Shown here one piece after another: positions 44,778-56,087 of a DNA stretch of 64,000 bases (the first letter of the stretch is position 1; each line of letters opens with the position of its first letter). A program made the translations under genes and the position numbers. Below the pieces are notes generated by a model. The model saw only the letters and a list, made by a program, of their open reading frames with translations, ran no database searches and had not been told where the DNA came from. Origin of the DNA: Lachnospiraceae bacterium (lineage in GTDB: Bacteria > Bacillota > Clostridia > Lachnospirales > Lachnospiraceae); NCBI GenBank assembly GCA_024403255.1, contig JAKSSE010000001.1:1-64000 (forward strand), given 5' to 3'.

Positions 44778-45726
44778 CAGTATTGTTGGAGATCCGCACT
44801 TTTTGCCGCATCCAATAAGACTTATTGGGAGATGGATTTCATTTCTTGATAAGAAGATGCTAGGAGAAAAGCCAGATGAAGTATCTGCTAAAAAACAAAA
44901 GGGCAGGGGCTTTTTACTAGTACTTCTCGTGATAATACCGGTAGCTGTTATTACTTTTTTCATTACATATGGCCTTTATAGAGTAAATATTTATGCTGGC
45001 ACGGTAGCAGAAACTATTATTTCTTTTTATTGTCTTTCTTTAAAGAGTCTTTTTATAGAAAGCGGAAATGTAGTAATTGCATTAAGAGAGGAAGGTCTTG
45101 ATGGGGCAAGAAAATCACTTTCAATGATAGTTGGAAGAGATACTAAAGATCTTTCAGTTAAAGAAGTGATAAAGGCAACTGTTGAGACTATTGCGGAAAA
45201 TACTTCAGATGGGGTAGTTGCACCTTTATTTTATCTTTTGTTAGGTGGCCCTGTTCTGGGTATGGTATATAAGGCAATAAACACCATGGACTCAATGGTC
45301 GGCTATAAAAATGACAGATATGAAAATTTTGGTTTTTTTGCAGCAAAACTTGATGATATAGCAAACTTTATTCCAAGCAGATTTGCAGCTTTTCTGGTGA
45401 TTTTTACTTCTGCAATGATGAAAAATGAATTTTCTGGAAAAGAAGCAAGAAGGATATATAAAAGAGACAGATTTAACCATAAAAGTCCTAACAGTGCTCA
45501 GACAGAATCGGCTTTTGCAGGGGCGATGGGGATTATGCTTGGAGGCGGTGCATCCTATTTTGGAAAATGGGTTGATAAGCCAACAATTGGAGATGAGACC
45601 AGGGAAATCGAAATAGAAGATGTTGATAGAGCACACCGGATAATGATAGTGTCCTACAGTACGTTTCTTTGTCTTATCCTACTTTTAGATGCTGCATTGT
45701 GGTATTCAATTAGAGGTAGCTTATGA
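44725..45726 (+). CDS. cbiB: Adenosylcobinamide-phosphate synthase (CbiB)
   Basis: 333-aa membrane protein. ATG at 44725 preceded by GGGGAG; a TTG-type start at 44707 is less likely. Marks: LDSIVGDPHFLPHPIRLIG, KATVETIAENTSDGVVAPLFY, YKAINTMDSMVGYKNDRY and NSAQTESAFAGAMGI. It joins aminopropanol (or its phosphate) to adenosylcobyric acid. ATGA overlap with the decarboxylase gene next. Confidence 0.95.
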   Translation: MALFSYHILALWLGVVLDSIVGDPHFLPHPIRLIGRWISFLDKKMLGEKPDEVSAKKQKGRGFLLVLLVIIPVAVITFFITYGLYRVNIYAGTVAETIISFYCLSLKSLFIESGNVVIALREEGLDGARKSLSMIVGRDTKDLSVKEVIKATVETIAENTSDGVVAPLFYLLLGGPVLGMVYKAINTMDSMVGYKNDRYENFGFFAAKLDDIANFIPSRFAAFLVIFTSAMMKNEFSGKEARRIYKRDRFNHKSPNSAQTESAFAGAMGIMLGGGASYFGKWVDKPTIGDETREIEIEDVDRAHRIMIVSYSTFLCLILLLDAALWYSIRGSL

Positions 45727-46754
45727 AAAAAATTCATGGTGGAGATGGGTACAACTATGATGAGATGTATGATTATTCAATCAATGTCAATCCACTAGGT
45801 GCGCCCCAAAGTGTAAAGGATGCGTTAAAGAAAGCCGCAGACAGAGTAGAGGCTTATCCTTCATATGGCTCTTTGGAAGTGAAAAATAAGCTTGCTAAAA
45901 CACTTGATATACCACCTGAATTTATAAATGTTACTGCTGGTGCGTCAGAAGCATTTATGGCTATTGCGCATGGAAGAAATTATCAGAATGTAGCGATTAA
46001 AGCGCCAAGTTTTTATGGGTATGAATATGCATTAAAGGCTGCAGGAAGCAGACTTGAGCACTTTACAACCCAGGGTTTCCAAAATTTTTTAAAAGGCTAC
46101 AGGGGTGATGCGATTTTTATGGCAAATCCTAATAACCCTGATGGCGAATTCTTTGATCATGACTCCATGCTGGAGATGGCTCAACTTGCAAAAGATCATA
46201 GTATGGACCTTATAGTGGATGAATGCTTTTTGACCCTTTCAGGACATGAAAAGGACAGCCTCGTTTACGATATAAAAAATGATCCGGTTGGGATGAATCA
46301 TGTGATTGTGGTTCGAAGCTTTACAAAAACCTTTGCCATCCCAGGAGCCAGAATAGGTTATTTTGTGACCAGTAACAAGGCATATCATAAGATGATCACG
46401 CCGCAGCTTATTGAGTGGAATGCATCCAATCTCGCGCAGGCCGCTGCTTTAGCAGCTTTGGATGAAACAGGCAGCTATATTGATAGAGCTGTAAATATTA
46501 TCAAAGAAGAAAGACCAAGACTTATAAAAGCTCTTATAGATAAGGGCTTTGAGGTTCCAGAGTATGAATCTGGTGCAAACTATATTTTCTTTAAAGGGCC
46601 TGCTGGACTTAAGGATAAATTTATTGAAAAGGGGTTCTTTATAAGAGACTGTAGTAATTACTATGGACTTAAAGATGGTGATTATCGTATTGCAGTAAGA
46701 GATAGGGCTGCAAATGATGCATTCATAAACGCTTTAAATGGCATTGAACTATAG
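45723..46754 (+). CDS. cobD: Threonine-phosphate decarboxylase-like aminotransferase (CobD)
   Basis: 343-aa PLP fold type I protein. MKKIHGGDGYNYDEMYDYSINVNPLG (split as HGGDGYNYDE and DYSINVNPLGAP) is the usual N-terminus; ANPNNPDGEF, DECFLTLSGHEKD and RSFTKTFAIPGARIGYF with the PLP Lys. Should make aminopropanol phosphate from threonine phosphate for CbiB. HisC-like aminotransferase activity is the alternative but context favours CobD. Ends at an intercistronic hairpin. Confidence 0.92.
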   Translation: MKKIHGGDGYNYDEMYDYSINVNPLGAPQSVKDALKKAADRVEAYPSYGSLEVKNKLAKTLDIPPEFINVTAGASEAFMAIAHGRNYQNVAIKAPSFYGYEYALKAAGSRLEHFTTQGFQNFLKGYRGDAIFMANPNNPDGEFFDHDSMLEMAQLAKDHSMDLIVDECFLTLSGHEKDSLVYDIKNDPVGMNHVIVVRSFTKTFAIPGARIGYFVTSNKAYHKMITPQLIEWNASNLAQAAALAALDETGSYIDRAVNIIKEERPRLIKALIDKGFEVPEYESGANYIFFKGPAGLKDKFIEKGFFIRDCSNYYGLKDGDYRIAVRDRAANDAFINALNGIEL

Positions 46755-46780
46755 TCTGGCATATTTTATAAAATGGAATA

Positions 46781-46817
46781 AAGGGGGAGTGGTTTCTTTG
46801 TTTGAAACTGCTCCTTT
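46781..46817 (+). terminator. Weak hairpin between cobD and cbiD
   Basis: GGAGTGGTTTC (46786-46796) pairs with GAAACTGCTCC (46804-46814) with two G-T pairs, flanked by GGG and TTTAGTT. T-run is short, so it may attenuate rather than stop transcription. No second riboswitch is present before cbiD. Confidence 0.5.
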
Positions 46818-46841
46818 AGTTAATATATAGGGCTTTGATAG

Positions 46842-47960
46842 ATGAGAAATGGTTTTACAACAGGAAGCTGTGCTGCTGCAGCGGCAAAGGCATCAGCTTA
46901 TCAGTTACTTTTTCAACATAATATAGATGCTATAAAAATTGATACTCCTTCGGGGGTATCTTTTGATGCAAAGTTAGTAGAATCCTACTATGACGGAGAA
47001 CTCTCTATTTGTGCAATAAAAAAAGACTCTGGAGATGACCCTGATATTACTGATGGAATCAGAATTTATGCAAAAGTATCCTACGGCAATGCAAATGAGA
47101 AAGGTGTTTATATAAAAGGTGGCCCAGGCATAGGCAAGGTGACAAGAAAAGGCCTTGAGATGCCTGTAGGAGAATGGGCAATAAATTCTGTTCCAAGAGA
47201 AATGATAAAAAATGAAGTCCTTCAGATTATGGAATTATGTGACTATGAGGGAACATTAATAGTTGAAATTTTTGCACCAGAAGGAGAAGAAATCGCAAAG
47301 AAAACTTTTAATCCACACATGGGTATTGAGGGTGGAATATCAATCTTAGGAACGAGTGGTATTGTTGAGCCGATGAGTAAAAAAGCTCTTTTGGACACTA
47401 TAAAACTTGACCTTAAGATGCAGTATGAGGAAGGCGCAAAGGTAGCAGTAATTGTGCCAGGAAATTATGGCGAAACATTCCTTTCTAAAACATATGGGGT
47501 AAATCCAGACAAAATAGTTGCCTGCTCCAACTTTGTTGGTGAAGCTTTAGACTATGCTGTAGAGGTTGGTTTTGAGAAAATTCTTTTTACAGGACACACA
47601 GGAAAACTTGTCAAAGTATCGGGCGGTATTATGAATACTCATTCTAAAGAAGCCGACTGCAGAATGGAATTAATGCTTAGCGCCCTGATTAAAACTGCGA
47701 AAGAACTTGAAATAGAAGTTTCTATGGAACTGATGGAAAATATACTTTCGCAGGTTTCAACTACAGCCGTTCTTGAAATATTAGAAGATGAGCATGTTTT
47801 ATATCCAGTATGTGAAACGATTCTTGAAAGAATACTTTTTTACATGAAAAAGAGAATAGATGATAAAGCACAGATAGAGTGCATTTTATATGAGAACAGT
47901 TTTGGGACTCTTGCAAAATCAAAAAAAGCAGAACTTTTTTTAGGAATGATAGATGACTAA
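46842..47960 (+). CDS. cbiD: Cobalt-precorrin-5B C1-methyltransferase (CbiD)
   Basis: 372 aa. MRNGFTTGSCAAAAAKAS is the signature N-terminus; SGDDPDITDG, GPGIGKVTRKGL, GEWAINSVPREM, GGISILGTSGIVEPMS and HTGKLVKVSGGIMNTHS follow. Methylates C1 in the anaerobic corrin pathway. Only a weak Shine-Dalgarno (TAGGG). Stop overlaps cbiF. Confidence 0.96.
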   Translation: MRNGFTTGSCAAAAAKASAYQLLFQHNIDAIKIDTPSGVSFDAKLVESYYDGELSICAIKKDSGDDPDITDGIRIYAKVSYGNANEKGVYIKGGPGIGKVTRKGLEMPVGEWAINSVPREMIKNEVLQIMELCDYEGTLIVEIFAPEGEEIAKKTFNPHMGIEGGISILGTSGIVEPMSKKALLDTIKLDLKMQYEEGAKVAVIVPGNYGETFLSKTYGVNPDKIVACSNFVGEALDYAVEVGFEKILFTGHTGKLVKVSGGIMNTHSKEADCRMELMLSALIKTAKELEIEVSMELMENILSQVSTTAVLEILEDEHVLYPVCETILERILFYMKKRIDDKAQIECILYENSFGTLAKSKKAELFLGMIDD

Positions 47961-48720
47961 GATTTATTTTGTTGGTGCTGGGTGTGGCGCAAAAGATTTA
48001 ATAACGGTAAGGGGGATGAACATTCTAAAAGATGCGGATATTATTGTTTATGCCGGATCTTTGGTTAATCCTGAACTTTTGACATATAACGAAACAAAAG
48101 CAGAGATATATAATAGCGCCACAATGACCCTGGATGAGGTTATGGAAGTGTTAATTGGTGGAGCTAGAAACAATAAAAAAGTTGTTAGACTTCATACCGG
48201 AGATCCCTCACTGTACGGAGCTATAGGTGAGCAGATACGGATTTTGAAAAAAGAGAGTATTTCTTATGAAGTGGTTCCTGGTGTTTCAGCAGCTTTTGGA
48301 GCTGCAGCGTCATTAGCATGCGAGATGACTTTGCCTGATGTTTCTCAAACTGTGATTCTGACAAGGATGGAAGGTAAAACAAAAGTTCCCAAGAAAGAAG
48401 CTATAGAGAATTTAGCCAGGGTTGGGGCAACTATGGCTATTTATCTTTCAGGAACCAGGGCTAAAGATTTAGCAGATAAACTTCTTTTGGGCGGCTATAA
48501 AAAAGATACCCCTGTTGCGGTATGTCATAAGGCAACCTGGGATGATGAAGTAATTATACGTTCTGATGTAGAACATATGGCAAAAGTTGTAGAAGAAAAT
48601 AATATTGAAAATACAACGTTGTTTTTGGTGGGAGATTCTGTAGGGGAAGATTCTGATTTTGAACTTTCAAAGCTTTATGCACCGGACTTTTCCACAGCAT
48701 TTAGAAAGGCGAAAGAATGA
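47953..48720 (+). CDS. cbiF: Cobalt-precorrin-4 C11-methyltransferase (CbiF)
   Basis: 255 aa, tetrapyrrole methylase fold. MTKIYFVGAGCGAKDLITVRG with YAGSLVNPEL, HTGDPSLYGAIGEQ (SAM site) and VVPGVSAAFGAAA. Overlaps cbiD by 8 nt and cbiG by ATGA. Confidence 0.95.
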   Translation: MTKIYFVGAGCGAKDLITVRGMNILKDADIIVYAGSLVNPELLTYNETKAEIYNSATMTLDEVMEVLIGGARNNKKVVRLHTGDPSLYGAIGEQIRILKKESISYEVVPGVSAAFGAAASLACEMTLPDVSQTVILTRMEGKTKVPKKEAIENLARVGATMAIYLSGTRAKDLADKLLLGGYKKDTPVAVCHKATWDDEVIIRSDVEHMAKVVEENNIENTTLFLVGDSVGEDSDFELSKLYAPDFSTAFRKAKE

Positions 48721-49661
48721 AAAATTATGCAGCTTTAGCCTTTACGGACAATGCAAAAAAAATATATGAAAAAATTTCGAAATCTTTTGATGGCGAAGCA
48801 TCTATTAGTTTAATTACAGTCAATGATATTGGGGCTTTATGGGATAAAACTGATGCCTTTATTTTTATATGTGCATCAGGAATTGCGGTAAGACATATAG
48901 CACCTTTTATAAAAGATAAGTTAACTGACCCTGCAGTTTTAGTTATGGATGAGCTGGGGATGAATGTTATTCCGCTTTTATCAGGACATGTAGGAGGGGC
49001 TAATGAGCTTGCAGGAAGGATAGCAGATAAACTATCCTGCAATGCAGTGATAACGACAGCTACTGATATAAACGGAACCTTAGCCATAGATGAGTGGGCT
49101 GTAAATAACAATCTTAAGATAAACAACAAATCCGGTATAAAGAAAGTGGCGATGAAACTTTTAAATGGTGAGGATGTTGATATTGCGGCTAATAGTTCAG
49201 TAATAATATCTAATCAAAAGCCAGATGAAGAGTGTGATTTGTGGCTTTCTCCTAAAAGGCAGTTTGTGGTAGGCATGGGCTGTAAAAAGGGAACATCTTT
49301 TGAAAAATTAAAAGACATATTAGAAGAGACATTAAGAGAACTGGGGATAGAAAATAGCGAGGTGAAAGCTTTAGCATCCATTGATTTAAAGATGGAAGAA
49401 GATGGACTTTTGGAGCTGTCAAATGATATGGATATCCCTATATATTTTTATAGTGCAGACGAATTAAAAAATGTTCCTGGAGATTTTGATGAGTCTTCAT
49501 TTGTTGAAAGCATCACTGGAGTTTCTGATGTGTCAGCAAGGGCAGCGAAATGCTGTGGCAGAGTGGGAAATTTTGCTCTAAAGAAAAAGAAACATGATGG
49601 AATGACAATATCAGTATTTGAAAAATATCAGGTTATAAGGATTGGCAATGAAGAAAATTGA
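48717..49661 (+). CDS. cbiG: Cobalt-precorrin-5A hydrolase (CbiG)
   Basis: 314 aa. Opens the C20 lactone, releasing acetaldehyde. N-terminal region with FICASGIAVRHIAPFIKDK, VLVMDELGMNVIPLLSGHVGGANELA and TTATDINGT; C-terminal VGMGCKKGTSFEKL and ASIDLKMEEDGLLELS. Full length for the family. Confidence 0.94.
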   Translation: MKNYAALAFTDNAKKIYEKISKSFDGEASISLITVNDIGALWDKTDAFIFICASGIAVRHIAPFIKDKLTDPAVLVMDELGMNVIPLLSGHVGGANELAGRIADKLSCNAVITTATDINGTLAIDEWAVNNNLKINNKSGIKKVAMKLLNGEDVDIAANSSVIISNQKPDEECDLWLSPKRQFVVGMGCKKGTSFEKLKDILEETLRELGIENSEVKALASIDLKMEEDGLLELSNDMDIPIYFYSADELKNVPGDFDESSFVESITGVSDVSARAAKCCGRVGNFALKKKKHDGMTISVFEKYQVIRIGNEEN

Positions 49662-50373
49662 TATTGTAGGTTTTGGACCTGGAAATAAAAATAAGATGAC
49701 TCTCGAAGCCATTGAAGCAATAAATAACGCAGATATTGTAGTTGGCTTTTCTACTTATGTGGAAATATTAAAGGAGTCATTTCCAAATAAAAAATATCTT
49801 TCGACTGGAATGGGTTCGGAAATAGAAAGATGCAAACTTGCTTTTGAAAAAGCAAGAGACTTTGATGTTGCGATTGTATGCTCTGGTGACAGCAGTATAT
49901 ATGGTATGGCAGGACTTATGAGAGAAATGAGCATATCCTATCCTGATATTACGGTTAATACCATACCAGGTGTTACAGCTGCGATAAGCGGCGGTGCACT
50001 TTTGGGAGCAGCTTTGGGACATGATTTTGCCTGTGTGAGTTTAAGTGATTATCTTACAGATAGAAAAGACATTGATAAAAGGCTTTTGGCTTTGGCTTCA
50101 TGTGACATGGTTATTGTTTTATATAATCCGAGAAGTAAGGCAAGGCCAGACAGTTTAAAAGATGCATGTGATTTACTTATGAGCATTATTCCAAAGGACC
50201 GCTCATGCGGCGTTGCAGCTAATATAGGTCGCGATGGAGAGTATTCCAAAGTTATGACGTTAGAAGAACTTGCTTTATATGAAGCGGATATGTTTACTAC
50301 TGTTTTTATAGGAAACTCAAAAACCAGAATAATGGACGATAAATTAGTAACTCCAAGAGGTTATATTCTTTGA
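49648..50373 (+). CDS. cbiH: Cobalt-precorrin-3B C17-methyltransferase (CbiH)
   Basis: 241 aa from the ATG at 49648 (14 nt inside the cbiG end; an in-frame TTG at 49642 exists). Tetrapyrrole methylase: IVGFGPGNKNKMTLEA, CSGDSSIYGMAGL, TIPGVTAAISGGALLGA, ARPDSLKDACDLL and NSKTRIMDDKLVTPRGY. Contracts the ring at C20. TTGA overlap with the fusion gene downstream. Confidence 0.94.
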   Translation: MKKIDIVGFGPGNKNKMTLEAIEAINNADIVVGFSTYVEILKESFPNKKYLSTGMGSEIERCKLAFEKARDFDVAIVCSGDSSIYGMAGLMREMSISYPDITVNTIPGVTAAISGGALLGAALGHDFACVSLSDYLTDRKDIDKRLLALASCDMVIVLYNPRSKARPDSLKDACDLLMSIIPKDRSCGVAANIGRDGEYSKVMTLEELALYEADMFTTVFIGNSKTRIMDDKLVTPRGYIL

Positions 50374-51734
50374 GTAAAATATATGTTTTTTCAGGGACAA
50401 CAGAAGGAAAACTTATAAGCAGAGCGCTCTCCAAAGCGTCTATTTATCATACAGTTTTTGTTGCTACAGAGTACGGAAAACTTGTTATGGACCCTTCTGA
50501 ATACGCAGATATAAAAGAAGGGCGAATGGATGCAGATGATATGGAAAAGCTTTTTACAGAAAGCACCCCCAAGTACGTTATAGATGCAACACATCCATAT
50601 GCTGTAGAAGTTACTAAAAACATAAGAAAGTCCTGCGAAAAGGCAGGTGTTATAGAATCGTATGTTCGCGTTGTAAGAAGGTGTGAAAATACAAATGAGT
50701 ATGAACACGCCGTAAGCTGCGCTGATGCAATAGAGAAATTAAAAAGTACTGATGGAAACATATTACTTACAACAGGCGTAAAAACCCTGCCAGAGTATAT
50801 GGCGCAAGAGGAAATAAAAGACAGAATTTATGCAAGAATACTGCCGTCTGTTGAATCTTTGAATATAGCTTTAAATACAGGAATAAAACCAGGGCATATT
50901 ATTGCTCAGGAGGGTCCTTTTTCTACCCAAAGCAATGAGGCTTTAATTTCCCAATATGACATAAAGGTACTTGTTACCAAAAATAGTGGTGACAGAGGCG
51001 GTTTTAAAGAAAAGATAGAAGCTGCCTTAAATAAAAATATAAAAGTAATTGTTATTGATCAGGAATCTGTGGATGAAGGAATAAGTGTAGAGGAAGCTAT
51101 AATGCTTGCCACTGGAAGGTGCGATGTCTCTTTGGAAGTTATAGTGGCAGGGATAGGTGTTGGTAATATTGATTCTTTAACAGTGGGTGTAAAGAAGGCC
51201 ATTGAGAAAGCTGACTTATTAATTGGCGCCAGTCGAATGGTCAGTTTTGGAAAAGAACTAAATCCAAGAGCAAAAATAGTCTGTGAGTATGATGCATTTA
51301 AAATTGCAGAGGCAATAGAAATGTATAAGCCGAAAAATCCAGTTGTTCTTATGTCTGGTGATACAGGATTTCATAGCGGGGCGGCAAAAGCAGGAAAGGT
51401 TCTTGAAGAAAAAGGCTATGAGGTTGTTTTGATGCCTGGAATTAGCAGCATATCATATTTTTCTTCACTTATTGGATGGGAGTATGAAAATATAATAAGT
51501 CTTCATGGTCAGGATAATGATTTGGCAAAAATACCTAATTTGGAATCTTTTTTTGCGATACTATCAGGCCCGGAGGATATAAAGAAGGTTACCAGTGTTT
51601 TAAATAATGACTGGGAAGTAGCCGTTGGATATAACCTTGGGTATGAAGACTCAAGCGTTGATATTTCAAGGTGTAGTGAAGTTAAAGAATATGATGAAAA
51701 GGGGCTGTATGTCATGGCAGCTCGCAAAGTATAA
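50370..51734 (+). CDS. cbiJ: CbiJ-CbiE fusion: cobalt-precorrin-6A reductase plus C5-methyltransferase
   Basis: 454 aa in two parts. Residues 1-250: YVFSGTTEGKLISRAL, YVIDATHPYAVEVTKNI, ARILPSVESLN, AQEGPFSTQSNEALI and TKNSGDRGGF of CbiJ/CobK. Residues ~255-454: EVIVAGIGVGNIDSLTVGVKKAI, GASRMVSFG, LMSGDTGFHSGAAK, LMPGISSISYFSSLIGW and SLHGQDND of CbiE, which methylates C5. The CbiT partner (C15 methylation and decarboxylation), often fused to CbiE, is absent. TTG start overlaps the cbiH stop. Last gene of the B12 run, followed by an AT-rich gap with no clear terminator. Confidence 0.9.
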   Translation: MSKIYVFSGTTEGKLISRALSKASIYHTVFVATEYGKLVMDPSEYADIKEGRMDADDMEKLFTESTPKYVIDATHPYAVEVTKNIRKSCEKAGVIESYVRVVRRCENTNEYEHAVSCADAIEKLKSTDGNILLTTGVKTLPEYMAQEEIKDRIYARILPSVESLNIALNTGIKPGHIIAQEGPFSTQSNEALISQYDIKVLVTKNSGDRGGFKEKIEAALNKNIKVIVIDQESVDEGISVEEAIMLATGRCDVSLEVIVAGIGVGNIDSLTVGVKKAIEKADLLIGASRMVSFGKELNPRAKIVCEYDAFKIAEAIEMYKPKNPVVLMSGDTGFHSGAAKAGKVLEEKGYEVVLMPGISSISYFSSLIGWEYENIISLHGQDNDLAKIPNLESFFAILSGPEDIKKVTSVLNNDWEVAVGYNLGYEDSSVDISRCSEVKEYDEKGLYVMAARKV

Positions 51735-51802: not shown

Positions 51803-53686
51803 ATGATTACAATATCCGAAGGAAATTTTTTACATTACGGAGCACTTTTAGATGGAAAGTGCGTATGCTTTACTTTTGAAGCGGATAAGGAGCAGAAATG
51901 CTTCCTTCTTTTGTTTGACAAAAAAACCAAGGAGTTAATTCAGAAAATAGAACTTCCAGATGAATACTGCATAGGATCTTTATGGTCTGTCTGTGTTGAG
52001 GGAATAGATTATTCAAAGGTTATGTACCTTTATGAAATAGATGGCAAGAGGATTCTTGATCCATATGCGACATCTATTATAGGTCGTGAAGTTTGGAAGG
52101 ATGAGAAGCGCCTTAAAAATCCAAATGAGGTATATGCTGGAATTACCAAAAGAGAAGCTCTTTGGAAAGAGGATAATTTCCCGGAACTTGGCTGCGAAGA
52201 TATGGTTATGTACAAGCTTCATGTCAGAGGCTTTACCATGGATCAGGCAAAGGTTAAAAATAAGGGAACTTTTTCCGGCATAGAAGAGAAGATTCCATAC
52301 TTTAAAGAACTTGGAGTTACTACGTTGTGTGTAATGCCAATATATGATTTTGAAGAGTGGATGTTTCCGGAAGAAGCAGAGACCGAATATAGAGAATGGC
52401 AGTCACAGGAAGGCGATGTAATTGCACCTCTACATAACGAGAGTGATTTAAAAGTTAACTACTGGGGCTATACCAAAGGCAATTATTTTGCACCAAAGGC
52501 ATCTTATTCAAAAGATAAGGATACGGCAAAAGAATTAAAGCATCTTATACATACTCTCCATGAAAATAATATGGAACTTGTTATGGAGATGTTTTTCGTG
52601 GGTGATATGAATCCTAATGAAATCGTGAGGATTCTTCGTCATTGGGTTATTGAATATCATGTGGATGGTTTTTCTCTTATGGGATACGACCTTCCTATGG
52701 CAGCAATAACCAGCGATATGATTTTAAGAAGAACAAAGCTTTTCTATTATGGATTTGACAGTTCTATTCTTGAAGCTTCTAAGTATAATAATCTGTTCAT
52801 CTGTAATGATGAATTTATGTATCCTGCAAGAAAGCTTCTTAACCGTATGGAAGGAAGATTATACGAGCTCGCAGCACAGATGAGACGTCAGGGTGAGAAT
52901 TTTAGCTTTGTAAATTATATCGATACAAATAATGGATTTACCTTAAATGATTTATTCTCATACAGCGAAAAGCATAATGAGGCTAATGGTGAGAATAATT
53001 TAGATGGTCCAATTTGGAATTATTCATCAGGTAATGGGGCAGAAGGTCCATCTCGAAAGAAAGCGATTAATGACTTTAGAACAAGGCAGATAAAGAATGC
53101 GCTTTGTGTCATGCTTTTGTCTCAGTCGGTGCCTTTGATTTTATCAGGTGATGAGTTTGGTAATTCTCAGGACGGAAACAATAATGCGTATTGTCAGGAT
53201 AACAAGACTGGCTGGGTAAACTGGGGAAAAGCAAAAAGCAATGAAAAACTTCTTAAGTTTACAGAGGATTTGATTAAGTTTAGAAAAAATCATCCTGTGA
53301 TAAGAAGTGCAAAGCCTATGCGAATGGCTGATTATGAAAGAACCGGATTTCCTGATTTTTCATATCACTGTGAACAGCCATGGATTAACGAAATTGCAGA
53401 ATCACGCTATGCTGTAGGAATGATGTATAACGGCGATTATGCAAAAGTAGATGATAAAAGTGATGACACTTTGTACATTTGCTACAACTTCCATGTTGGA
53501 ATGCAGCTTATGAGTCTTCCTGAACCAGTAAAAGGTGGTAAATGGGAAAAACTCTTAAATACCTGTGAAGGTGGTGGAGTTTTCCTTGAAAAACCTGAAA
53601 TCCTTGAAAATCAAAAGATTTTGATGATACCAGGTCAGTCAGTAACAATACTTAGACTAGTTTTACCGGAAGCAGATAATGAATAA
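51803..53686 (+). CDS. GH13 (GlgX/pullulanase-like) family pseudoenzyme
   Basis: 627 aa. The scaffold of a glycogen-debranching GH13 is clear: N-terminal beta domain (1-110) with YEIDGKRILDPYA, YKLHVRGFTM, NYWGYTKGNYFAPKASYS, SGDEFGNSQDGNNNAYCQDN and GWVNW, plus a C-terminal beta domain. But all four GH13 catalytic regions are altered. Region I reads ELVMEMFFVGD instead of DVVxNH. Region II reads DGFSLM at 288-293, replacing the Arg and the nucleophile Asp of DGFRFD. Region IV reads IDTNNGF at 373-379, replacing the HD pair. Only a Glu at 337 may be left in region III. Hydrolysis is therefore very unlikely; glycan binding or regulation is more plausible. Overlaps TraX by 8 nt. Confidence 0.85.
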   Translation: MITISEGNFLHYGALLDGKCVCFTFEADKEQKCFLLLFDKKTKELIQKIELPDEYCIGSLWSVCVEGIDYSKVMYLYEIDGKRILDPYATSIIGREVWKDEKRLKNPNEVYAGITKREALWKEDNFPELGCEDMVMYKLHVRGFTMDQAKVKNKGTFSGIEEKIPYFKELGVTTLCVMPIYDFEEWMFPEEAETEYREWQSQEGDVIAPLHNESDLKVNYWGYTKGNYFAPKASYSKDKDTAKELKHLIHTLHENNMELVMEMFFVGDMNPNEIVRILRHWVIEYHVDGFSLMGYDLPMAAITSDMILRRTKLFYYGFDSSILEASKYNNLFICNDEFMYPARKLLNRMEGRLYELAAQMRRQGENFSFVNYIDTNNGFTLNDLFSYSEKHNEANGENNLDGPIWNYSSGNGAEGPSRKKAINDFRTRQIKNALCVMLLSQSVPLILSGDEFGNSQDGNNNAYCQDNKTGWVNWGKAKSNEKLLKFTEDLIKFRKNHPVIRSAKPMRMADYERTGFPDFSYHCEQPWINEIAESRYAVGMMYNGDYAKVDDKSDDTLYICYNFHVGMQLMSLPEPVKGGKWEKLLNTCEGGGVFLEKPEILENQKILMIPGQSVTILRLVLPEADNE

Positions 53687-54380
53687 TATTTGTCCTAAAT
53701 ATATAAAACCGGTTTTGTCTGGCGCCCATCTTAAGGCAATCGCTATAATTACGATGATTATTGATCATTTGGCGGTTGCTTTTACCACAACGGATATGCC
53801 AATAAGAGCATGTTTAAGAGGGATAGGAAGAAATGCATTTCCTATATTTTGTTTTCTGCTGGTAGAGGGAGCCTTAAAAACCAGCAATATAAAAAAGTAT
53901 GCTTTAAGACTTTTTGTATTTGCGCTTGTTTCAGAAATACCTTTTGATCTTGTTCTTTACAGAAGCGCGTGGGCCATTCGAAAACAAAATACTTTTTTTA
54001 CACTTTTGTTTGGGCTTTTGATGCTTTGGATTTTAAAGTCGACCACAAATAATCTTTACCTTTTGGTAGGAGTTTTTAGCTGTGGCTTTGCGGCTTATTT
54101 TTTAAAAACTGATTATGGCATGTGGGGAGTTGCGTTAATCCTTGCATTCTATGTTGCTACAATTTTTCCTGAGGTGGGATTTACGCTTTTTGTTGTTCTT
54201 ATGTTTTTTAAAGGGGGCAGCGAGTATTGGGGATTATTTAGTATTATTCCAATAGCTTTATATAATGGACAAAGAGGCAAGCAGATGGGACATGCTCTTT
54301 ATCTTGTTTATCCATTACATTTATTAGTGATTTATATAATTTGGTGTATTTATAATGGCACATCCGTTTTTGCATTTTAA
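53679..54380 (+). CDS. TraX-family membrane protein
   Basis: 233 aa, about seven TM helices. Family marks: LKAIAIITMIIDHLAVAF, RGIGRNAFPIFCFLLVEGAL, RLFVFALVSEIPFDLVLY and the C-terminal YLVYPLHLLVIY stretch. In F plasmids TraX acetylates pilin, but chromosomal members are widespread in Firmicutes, probably as membrane acyltransferases, and there is no conjugation gene here. Its start lies in the GH13-like gene end, its end in the DUF5662 gene, so the three are one transcript. Confidence 0.85.
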   Translation: MNNICPKYIKPVLSGAHLKAIAIITMIIDHLAVAFTTTDMPIRACLRGIGRNAFPIFCFLLVEGALKTSNIKKYALRLFVFALVSEIPFDLVLYRSAWAIRKQNTFFTLLFGLLMLWILKSTTNNLYLLVGVFSCGFAAYFLKTDYGMWGVALILAFYVATIFPEVGFTLFVVLMFFKGGSEYWGLFSIIPIALYNGQRGKQMGHALYLVYPLHLLVIYIIWCIYNGTSVFAF

Positions 54381-54906
54381 AACAATTACAAAGCATAAGT
54401 TTCTTGTCATGGGGCAGTGCTTCAAGGTGGGACTTATTTGGCAGGGATTAGCTCATGATATGAGTAAATACAGCCCAACGGAGTTTATTCCCGGTGCTAA
54501 ATACTATATGGGAACATCAAGCCCCTGCAATGAGGAAAGAAGAAACACAGGCCAGTCAAAGGCATGGGTTCATCATAAGGGAAGAAACAAACATCACTTT
54601 GAGTATTGGATAGACTGGAATCCAAATCCAGAACATAAATGGGACCTTGTTGGTACAAAGATGCCAGTAAGATATGTTGTAGAGATGTACTGCGATAGAA
54701 TTGCAGCATGCAAGAACTATCAGGGAAAAGCCTATACCCAAAGAAGCCCCATTGATTATTATAATGGTGGTCCTACGAGGCGATGGCTTCACCCCGAATC
54801 TGCAGATTTGATTGAGCTTTTACTCAATATGCTTGCGGATAAGGGGGAAAAAGAAACAAACCGTTACATTAGACAAAATATCCTCAAAGGGAATAGGTAT
54901 AAATAG
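54355..54906 (+). CDS. DUF5662 family protein
   Basis: 183 aa, start 26 nt inside the TraX gene. Soluble, rich in His, Trp and Asp: MAHPFLHFKTITKHKFLVM, LAHDMSKYSPTEF, HHKGRNKHHFEYWIDW and YCDRIAACKNYQGK (HD-like arrangement of His and Asp residues that could bind metal). The family is common in Firmicutes and phages; no activity is established. Followed after 8 nt by trpS. Confidence 0.8.
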   Translation: MAHPFLHFKTITKHKFLVMGQCFKVGLIWQGLAHDMSKYSPTEFIPGAKYYMGTSSPCNEERRNTGQSKAWVHHKGRNKHHFEYWIDWNPNPEHKWDLVGTKMPVRYVVEMYCDRIAACKNYQGKAYTQRSPIDYYNGGPTRRWLHPESADLIELLLNMLADKGEKETNRYIRQNILKGNRYK

Positions 54907-54914
54907 GAGTTATC

Positions 54915-56060
54915 ATGTCAGAAGAGAAGAAAACAATATACAGTGGAATGCAGGCAACAGGAAATCTTACTTTAGGAAATTATCTTGGAGCACTTAAGAA
55001 CTGGGTAAATCTGCATCAGGATTATAATTGTCTTTTTGGTATTATGGATCTTCATTCACTTACAGTTCGTCAGGATCCAGCCGCATTTAAAAAGCATGCA
55101 AGAAGCCTTTATGCACTTTATGTTGCAGCAGGTCTTTCGCCAGAAGAAAATATCATTTATTACCAGTCACATGTACCAGCACATGCTGAACTTGGCTGGA
55201 TATTAGACTGCTTTACCTATATGGGTGAGCTTAACAGAATGACTCAGTTCAAGGATAAGTCAGCAAAACATGCAGATAATATCAATGCAGGTCTTTATAC
55301 ATATCCAGCTCTTATGGCAGCTGATATTCTCTTATATCAGGCTGATTTAGTACCAGTTGGAGCAGACCAGAAACAGCACCTTGAGCTTTGCCGTGACGTT
55401 GCACAGAGATTTAACTCTATTTATGGCGATGTATTCACCATTCCAGATGGCTATTTTGGAAAGACTTCTGCAAAGGTAATGAGCCTTCAGGAGCCAGAAA
55501 AGAAGATGAGTAAGTCAGATGAAAACTTAAATGCAACGATTCTTCTTACTGATGATAAAGATACTGTTATTAGAAAGTTTAAAAGAGCAGTAACTGACTC
55601 AGAGGCAAACATTGCATATAGAGACGAGCAGCCAGGAATTAAAAACCTTATCAATATCTATTCGGCAGTGACTGAAAAGACTCCGGAAGAAGTTGTAAAA
55701 GAGTTTGAAGGCAAGGGTTATGGTGACTTTAAGATGGCTGTAGGTGAGGCTGTTGCGAGTGAACTTGCGCCACTTCAGGAAAGATATAACGATATCCTTA
55801 AAAATAAAGATTACCTTGACCAGATGATTAGAACCAACGATGAAAAGGCTGCAATCCTGGCAAATAAGACCTTAAGAAAGGTTCATAAGAAGGTAGGACT
55901 TACTGATAGGGTATATTATCCATTCCCACCAAAGAAGGAAGAGCCAAAGGAAGAAGTTCCTGCAGCTGATGATGGAGCTTATGTTCAGATGTCTCTCACA
56001 GCAACGAAGATTAAGGATAAAGATACTATCACCGTAAAAGAAAACAAAAAAAGAAAGTAA
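54915..56060 (+). CDS. trpS: Tryptophanyl-tRNA synthetase with extra C-terminal tail
   Basis: 381 aa. Class I synthetase: MQATGNLTLGNYLGAL contains the HIGH-like site (TLGN) and KKMSKSDEN the KMSKS loop. LPVGADQKQHLELCRD-type segment (VPVGADQKQHLELCRD) is intact. Typical TrpS ends near 335-340; here a ~45-aa tail follows, with a Glu/Lys-Pro segment (PPKKEEPKEEVP) and a charged end. There is no T-box leader in the 8 nt before it, so regulation is by the upstream promoter. Confidence 0.95.
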   Translation: MSEEKKTIYSGMQATGNLTLGNYLGALKNWVNLHQDYNCLFGIMDLHSLTVRQDPAAFKKHARSLYALYVAAGLSPEENIIYYQSHVPAHAELGWILDCFTYMGELNRMTQFKDKSAKHADNINAGLYTYPALMAADILLYQADLVPVGADQKQHLELCRDVAQRFNSIYGDVFTIPDGYFGKTSAKVMSLQEPEKKMSKSDENLNATILLTDDKDTVIRKFKRAVTDSEANIAYRDEQPGIKNLINIYSAVTEKTPEEVVKEFEGKGYGDFKMAVGEAVASELAPLQERYNDILKNKDYLDQMIRTNDEKAAILANKTLRKVHKKVGLTDRVYYPFPPKKEEPKEEVPAADDGAYVQMSLTATKIKDKDTITVKENKKRK

Positions 56061-56063
56061 TAT

Positions 56064-56087
56064 AAGGGCGCTAGGCGCCCTTTTTTT
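56064..56087 (+). terminator. trpS terminator
   Basis: AAGGGCGC (56064-56071), TAG loop, GCGCCCTT (56075-56082), T-run to 56087. Confidence 0.92.

Follow-up and report, generated by a model that had tools for sequence, protein, structure and literature searches.

What does a protein built like a debranching enzyme do once the residues that hydrolyze the branch are gone? The question is raised by a gene in the window (the whole 64,000-nucleotide stretch of Lachnospiraceae DNA analyzed here) whose product resembles GlgX and isoamylase over its entire length. A sequence-only reading of the window had described this gene as an intact member of the family with its catalytic motifs erased, a conserved dead fold that might act as a glycogen or starch sensor or scaffold. 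We refer to the protein as dead GlgX. The features of its gene are listed below; counts are of 78 aligned dead members of the clade unless marked otherwise.

51803-53686, + strand: dead GlgX/isoamylase (GH13_11-like) paralog, 627 aa (intact ORF, TIGR02100, AlphaFold model [AF2], Foldseek)
51803-52057, + strand: N-terminal CBM48-like beta-sandwich, residues ~1 to 85 (beta-rich in the AF2 model)
52463-52471, + strand: kept sugar contacts W221 and Y223 (W in 78/78; Y in 70/78, F in 8)
52586-52609, + strand: former region I, EMFFVGDM for DVVxNHTA; next loop reduced from 57 to 13 residues
52661-52681, + strand: former region II, VDGFSLM, residues 287 to 293; nucleophile Asp replaced by Met; next loop reduced from 26 to 12 residues
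52736-52756, + strand: former region III, KLFYYGF, residues 312 to 318; acid/base Glu replaced by Tyr316
52916-52942, + strand: former region IV, YIDTNNGFT, residues 372 to 380; catalytic His-Asp replaced by Asn-Asn
52991-52993, + strand: kept sugar contact E397 (E470 of GlgX; E in 77/78, versus 19/29 in active GlgX)
53174-53203, + strand: kept GNNNAYCQDN with contacts N461 and Y463 (N in 78/78, Y in 74/78)
53330-53383, + strand: C-terminal segment D510...PDxSxHGxxxW527 (D510 in 77/78, S520 in 78/78, H522 in 78/78, W527 in 77/78)

A GlgX fold without a GlgX active site

The open reading frame runs unbroken from ATG to TAA, in agreement with the sequence-only reading. The TIGR02100 GlgX profile matches the protein with an E value of 6e-82, although its score of 276 bits falls far short of the equivalog cutoff of 640.9 bits (~641). 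Sequence matches in the PDB are GlgX proteins and isoamylases (E values down to 2e-54). In the AlphaFold model (pLDDT 89.3, pTM 0.90), a CBM48-like domain, a (beta/alpha)8 barrel, and a C-terminal beta-domain are present, and the best PDB matches found by Foldseek are rice ISA1 and Streptomyces venezuelae GlgX (query TM ~0.82); plant ISA2 scored somewhat lower. The GlgX fold is thus predicted to be kept. At the sequence level, a CBM_48 match was detected in 24 of 39 aligned clade members and was weak or undetected in the window protein. No signal peptide was seen by eye at its N terminus, and the protein looks cytoplasmic.

Within this fold, the motifs that the sequence-only reading had called erased are indeed gone: EMFFVGD stands where DVVxNHTA is expected in region I, DGFSLM replaces DGFRFD in region II, and region IV reads YIDTNNGF versus FVTxHDGF, with NN for HD. 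Region III is likewise altered (KLFYYGF versus KLIAEAW). The nucleophile, the acid, the His, the Asp, and the region I His have all changed, and the positions of the GlgX catalytic residues are occupied by M293, Y316, N377, and N376. The loops after barrel strands 3 and 4 (beta3 and beta4), which border the active site, have contracted by 44 and 14 residues relative to GlgX (57 to 13 and 26 to 12) in every member of the clade; both were shortened once, in the clade ancestor.

If the fold is dead, orthologs should share these losses, and they do: the 78 orthologs and 19 further sequences outside the original set agree, and orthologs that keep the catalytic residues were not seen. The nucleophile Asp occurs in 1 of the 78 aligned dead members, and that one is an off-register alignment (locus L162); in the 19 additional sequences, no nucleophile was present wherever the position could be read. 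The acid Glu persists in 10/78 and the transition-state Asp in 14/78, with all three catalytic residues together in none (0/78). Because His-Asp lingers here and there in the clade and the nucleophile nowhere, the nucleophile was probably lost first, with the remaining catalytic residues decaying later. Active GlgX has 171 conserved columns; the dead clade retains 67 of them and has lost 61. Loss of catalysis is near certain from these replacements, and the protein is predicted not to hydrolyze alpha-1,6 branches.

Sugar contacts are retained away from the cutting site

In S. venezuelae GlgX, acarbose is contacted in the -1 site by W222, Y224, H271, D342, E378, W380, H449, and D450, and at the other sugars by R212, E470, N534, and Y536 (PMC9530166). 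We transferred these contacts to the window protein through the PDB-match alignment, in which R212 was unmappable. W222, Y224, E470, N534, and Y536 correspond to W221, Y223, E397, N461, and Y463, which are retained in 100, 90, 99, 100, and 95% of the clade, respectively. E397 is more conserved among dead members than its equivalent in active GlgX. In contrast, the -1-site contacts H271, D342, E378, H449, and D450 have disappeared, and W380 persists in one third. The five kept contacts are also present in the 19 further sequences, apart from a single F, a single Q, and a few W. GNNNAYCQDN, which the sequence-only reading had noted as a kept scaffold motif, is present in the window protein and includes two of these contacts. 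Because most of the contact residues sit in loops conserved across all GlgX, they may have been retained for folding instead.

One ancient clade under purifying selection

Orthologs were sought in 145 relatives and in 84,980 species genomes. They occur across Lachnospiraceae as proteins of ~560 to 700 aa with intact reading frames in dozens of genera. Dead GlgX is present in no fewer than 72 of the 89 family genomes, as checked at the residue level or by context; some presence and absence calls use score and length, not residues. In a class sample of 291 genomes drawn evenly, 8 of the 10 genomes of the same family were positive, the window's own apart, and dead GlgX was found in none of the ~280 genomes outside Lachnospiraceae at E<=1e-70.

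A maximum-likelihood tree separated 78 dead from 30 active sequences by one branch (SH-aLRT 100), supporting a single origin of the dead clade. The active GlgX proteins of Lachnospiraceae fall on the active side of the tree, indicating that the dead protein is an old paralog, not a product of recent decay. Within one genus (~80% identity), dN/dS was 0.07 to 0.12; dS exceeds 1, which makes these values approximate, yet they stay clearly under 1, and the gene is therefore no pseudogene. The incompleteness of the window's source bin (60.7% complete) would be compatible with an assembly artifact of the metagenome, and an active GlgX missing from that bin is not proven absent from the genome. Nevertheless, with intact reading frames in dozens of genera, dN/dS of ~0.1, shared derived deletions, and a well-predicted fold, we rejected a decaying pseudogene or artifact, whose probability is negligible. 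With one origin, purifying selection, and losses common to the whole clade, "conserved dead fold" proved an apt description.

Gene neighborhood

Three co-directional genes and a terminator-like structure follow dead GlgX in the window.

53679-54380, + strand: TraX-family membrane protein (PF05857, E = 4e-40); starts 8 bp inside the end of dead GlgX
54355-54906, + strand: DUF5662 protein (PF18907, E = 5e-35); called start 26 bp inside TraX
54915-56060, + strand: tryptophanyl-tRNA synthetase (trpS; ORF, named from sequence), probably the final gene of the unit
56064-56082, + strand: strong terminator-like hairpin after trpS, AAGGGCGC-TAG-GCGCCCTT followed by a T-run

The two overlaps bear out the coupling to two genes described by the sequence-only reading. 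Its claim that the gene has its own promoter was not supported: 10 promoter-like sites were found versus 14.6 in shuffled DNA, and the nearest overlaps the start codon. Directly upstream in the window (45723-51734) lies a co-directional run of genes that by eye belongs to cobalamin (cbi/cob-type) biosynthesis.

Across 76 loci, the immediate co-directional downstream gene encodes TraX in 21 and DUF5662 in a further 27 (48/76 in total), and overlap with either is frequent; trpS neighbors dead GlgX in several relatives as well. Housekeeping genes lie upstream (gltX, a UvrD-like helicase, and exonuclease III), and no glg genes adjoin the dead GlgX gene in the loci examined. In one subclade of 8 loci (L153 to L158, L161, and L162), the gene immediately upstream encodes a Peripla_BP_4 sugar-binding lipoprotein, the spacing running from -35 to +24 bp. 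These lipoproteins are ~335 to 365 aa long and bear a lipobox, and dead GlgX in this subclade is shorter (~565 to 585 aa). DUF5662 occurs in most Lachnospiraceae genomes examined, with a second copy (G000:C71) in the genome that the window comes from.

Glycogen genes and the function of dead GlgX

The glycogen genes glgA, glgC, and glgD are almost universal in Lachnospiraceae, and every carrier of dead GlgX except one has glgA; given this near-universality, their co-occurrence with dead GlgX is uninformative. Active GlgX was found in 28 of the 89 family genomes, the dead copy being the commoner. Twenty-nine carriers (e.g., G010, G022, G054, G056, and G066) have glycogen synthesis genes and no recognized GlgX, type I pullulanase, or GDE_C.

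One explanation for dead GlgX is that it serves as a noncatalytic subunit that pairs with and tunes active GlgX, as plant ISA2, a GH13_11 paralog in which the same residues are lost, binds ISA1 (PMC12510319). Active GlgX is indeed present in 25 carriers. However, it is missing in 47 of 72, which makes an ISA2-like role as a general GlgX subunit unlikely, and co-occurrence of the dead and active proteins was not significant (25/71 versus 2/16; P = 0.13). An obligate GlgX partner, and with it dependence on active GlgX, is excluded as a general rule; we regard the subunit explanation overall as unlikely. Moreover, 29 of the 47 carriers without active GlgX have neither type I pullulanase nor GDE_C, so that dead GlgX is the sole isoamylase-type protein found in them. 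This would be consistent with a protein that has remained an enzyme, its active site rebuilt or its chemistry different, and that debranches glycogen where no other debrancher is present; D510, near-invariant in the dead clade only and not in active GlgX, could be read the same way. Such an enzyme would nevertheless have to work without the nucleophile and its adjoining loops, at a position that varies freely in the dead clade (N, I, L, V, K, and S), and no new invariant acidic pair appears there at strands 4, 5, or 7. In addition, all five genomes examined among those without GlgX, PulA, and GDE_C carry a GH13 protein of 680 to 700 aa resembling neopullulanase or maltodextrin glucosidase, which could do the debranching there. 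Its presence lowers the case for a hidden enzyme, which we consider improbable.

The neighborhood suggests a different task, in which dead GlgX works with TraX (membrane acyltransferase-like) and DUF5662 on the envelope or a surface glycan and not on glycogen. Next-gene positions held by TraX or DUF5662 in 48/76 loci, often with overlap, and the upstream lipoprotein of the 8-locus subclade point in this direction, and a functional link to the two proteins is possible. However, both are near-universal in Lachnospiraceae with or without dead GlgX, making their co-occurrence uninformative; the upstream genes are housekeeping genes, the protein looks cytoplasmic, and TraX, DUF5662, and trpS may be passive syntenic neighbors. 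We doubt this explanation, slightly more than we doubt the subunit and less than the hidden enzyme.

The explanation that we favor, and judge moderately probable, is that dead GlgX, an ancient nonhydrolytic GlgX paralog now fixed in most of the family, attaches to the outer chains of glycogen or maltodextrin inside the cell and serves there in binding, regulation, or scaffolding. Judging from the retained contacts in its sequence, alpha-glucan binding without hydrolysis is the best-supported function. The protein would hold alpha-glucan chain ends through W221, Y223, E397, N461, Y463, and the CBM48-like domain, and occupancy of the chain ends or recruitment of a partner would then set access for synthase, branching enzyme, phosphorylase, or the species' own hydrolase. 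Scaffold, sensor, and access-control roles are indistinguishable from these data. As for the glycogen or starch sensor or scaffold proposed by the sequence-only reading, glycogen is plausible, given the contacts kept away from the cutting site and the presence of glgA, glgC, and glgD in nearly all carriers; starch is unlikely because no signal peptide was seen by eye, and the protein cannot be a GlgX-specific scaffold in the 47 carriers that lack active GlgX. More tentatively, and with somewhat less than even confidence, we suggest a family-wide pseudo-debranching enzyme, evolved apart from plant ISA2, that controls glycogen architecture or use without a GlgX partner.

Comparison with known systems

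Dead GlgX shares with GlgX/TreX (CAZy GH13_11; TIGR02100) the CBM48-like N-terminal domain, the TIM barrel, the C-terminal beta-domain, the motifs GNNNAYCQDN and KHNExNGExNxDG, and the contacts W222/Y224/E470/N534/Y536 (S. venezuelae numbering). In contrast to these enzymes, its nucleophile, acid/base, and His-Asp are missing, two active-site loops are shortened (-44 and -14 residues), its score is far under the GlgX cutoff, and its gene lies away from glg genes. Because the defining catalytic residues were tested for and are absent, it should not be classed as a GlgX enzyme.

Most similar in kind is plant ISA2, also a catalytically dead GH13_11 paralog that is ancient and lineage-wide and evolves faster than the active enzymes related to it (PMC12510319). 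As in ISA2, at least four of the five catalytic residues, including the nucleophile, are changed in the window protein. However, ISA2 has an extra N-terminal beta-sandwich, whereas dead GlgX starts directly with the CBM48-like domain in the AF2 model, and ISA2 complexes with ISA1, whereas most carriers of dead GlgX have no active partner; we therefore do not class it as ISA2. The two probably originated independently, given their separate lineages (plants versus Lachnospiraceae); the tree comprised the 78 dead and 30 active sequences, without ISA2. A further parallel is GlgD, a paralog of GlgC described as its regulatory subunit (PMC10395257). Like dead GlgX, GlgD is a paralog within the same pathway and occurs in many of the same genomes, but it derives from another enzyme and fold and acts with GlgC, whereas dead GlgX has no known partner.

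Implications for glycogen metabolism in Lachnospiraceae

A review credits Blautia obeum with two glgX homologs (PMC10395257). Among the papers covered by our search, which took in no subscription journals, none described a dead GlgX from bacteria, and an earlier description is possible. Lachnospiraceae rank among the dominant bacteria of the gut, and their glycogen genes have been surveyed by counting homologs. One of the two B. obeum homologs may be the dead paralog; if so, counts of debranching-enzyme genes in gut bacteria may be inflated. The many glycogen-synthesizing Lachnospiraceae without a recognized GlgX, type I pullulanase, or GDE_C also raise the question of how their glycogen is debranched. 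The retention of plant ISA2 is itself openly described as not understood (PMC12510319). Should dead GlgX bind glycogen, bacteria would possess a counterpart of ISA2 that evolved independently, in organisms where the effect of such a protein would be separable from that of an active partner.
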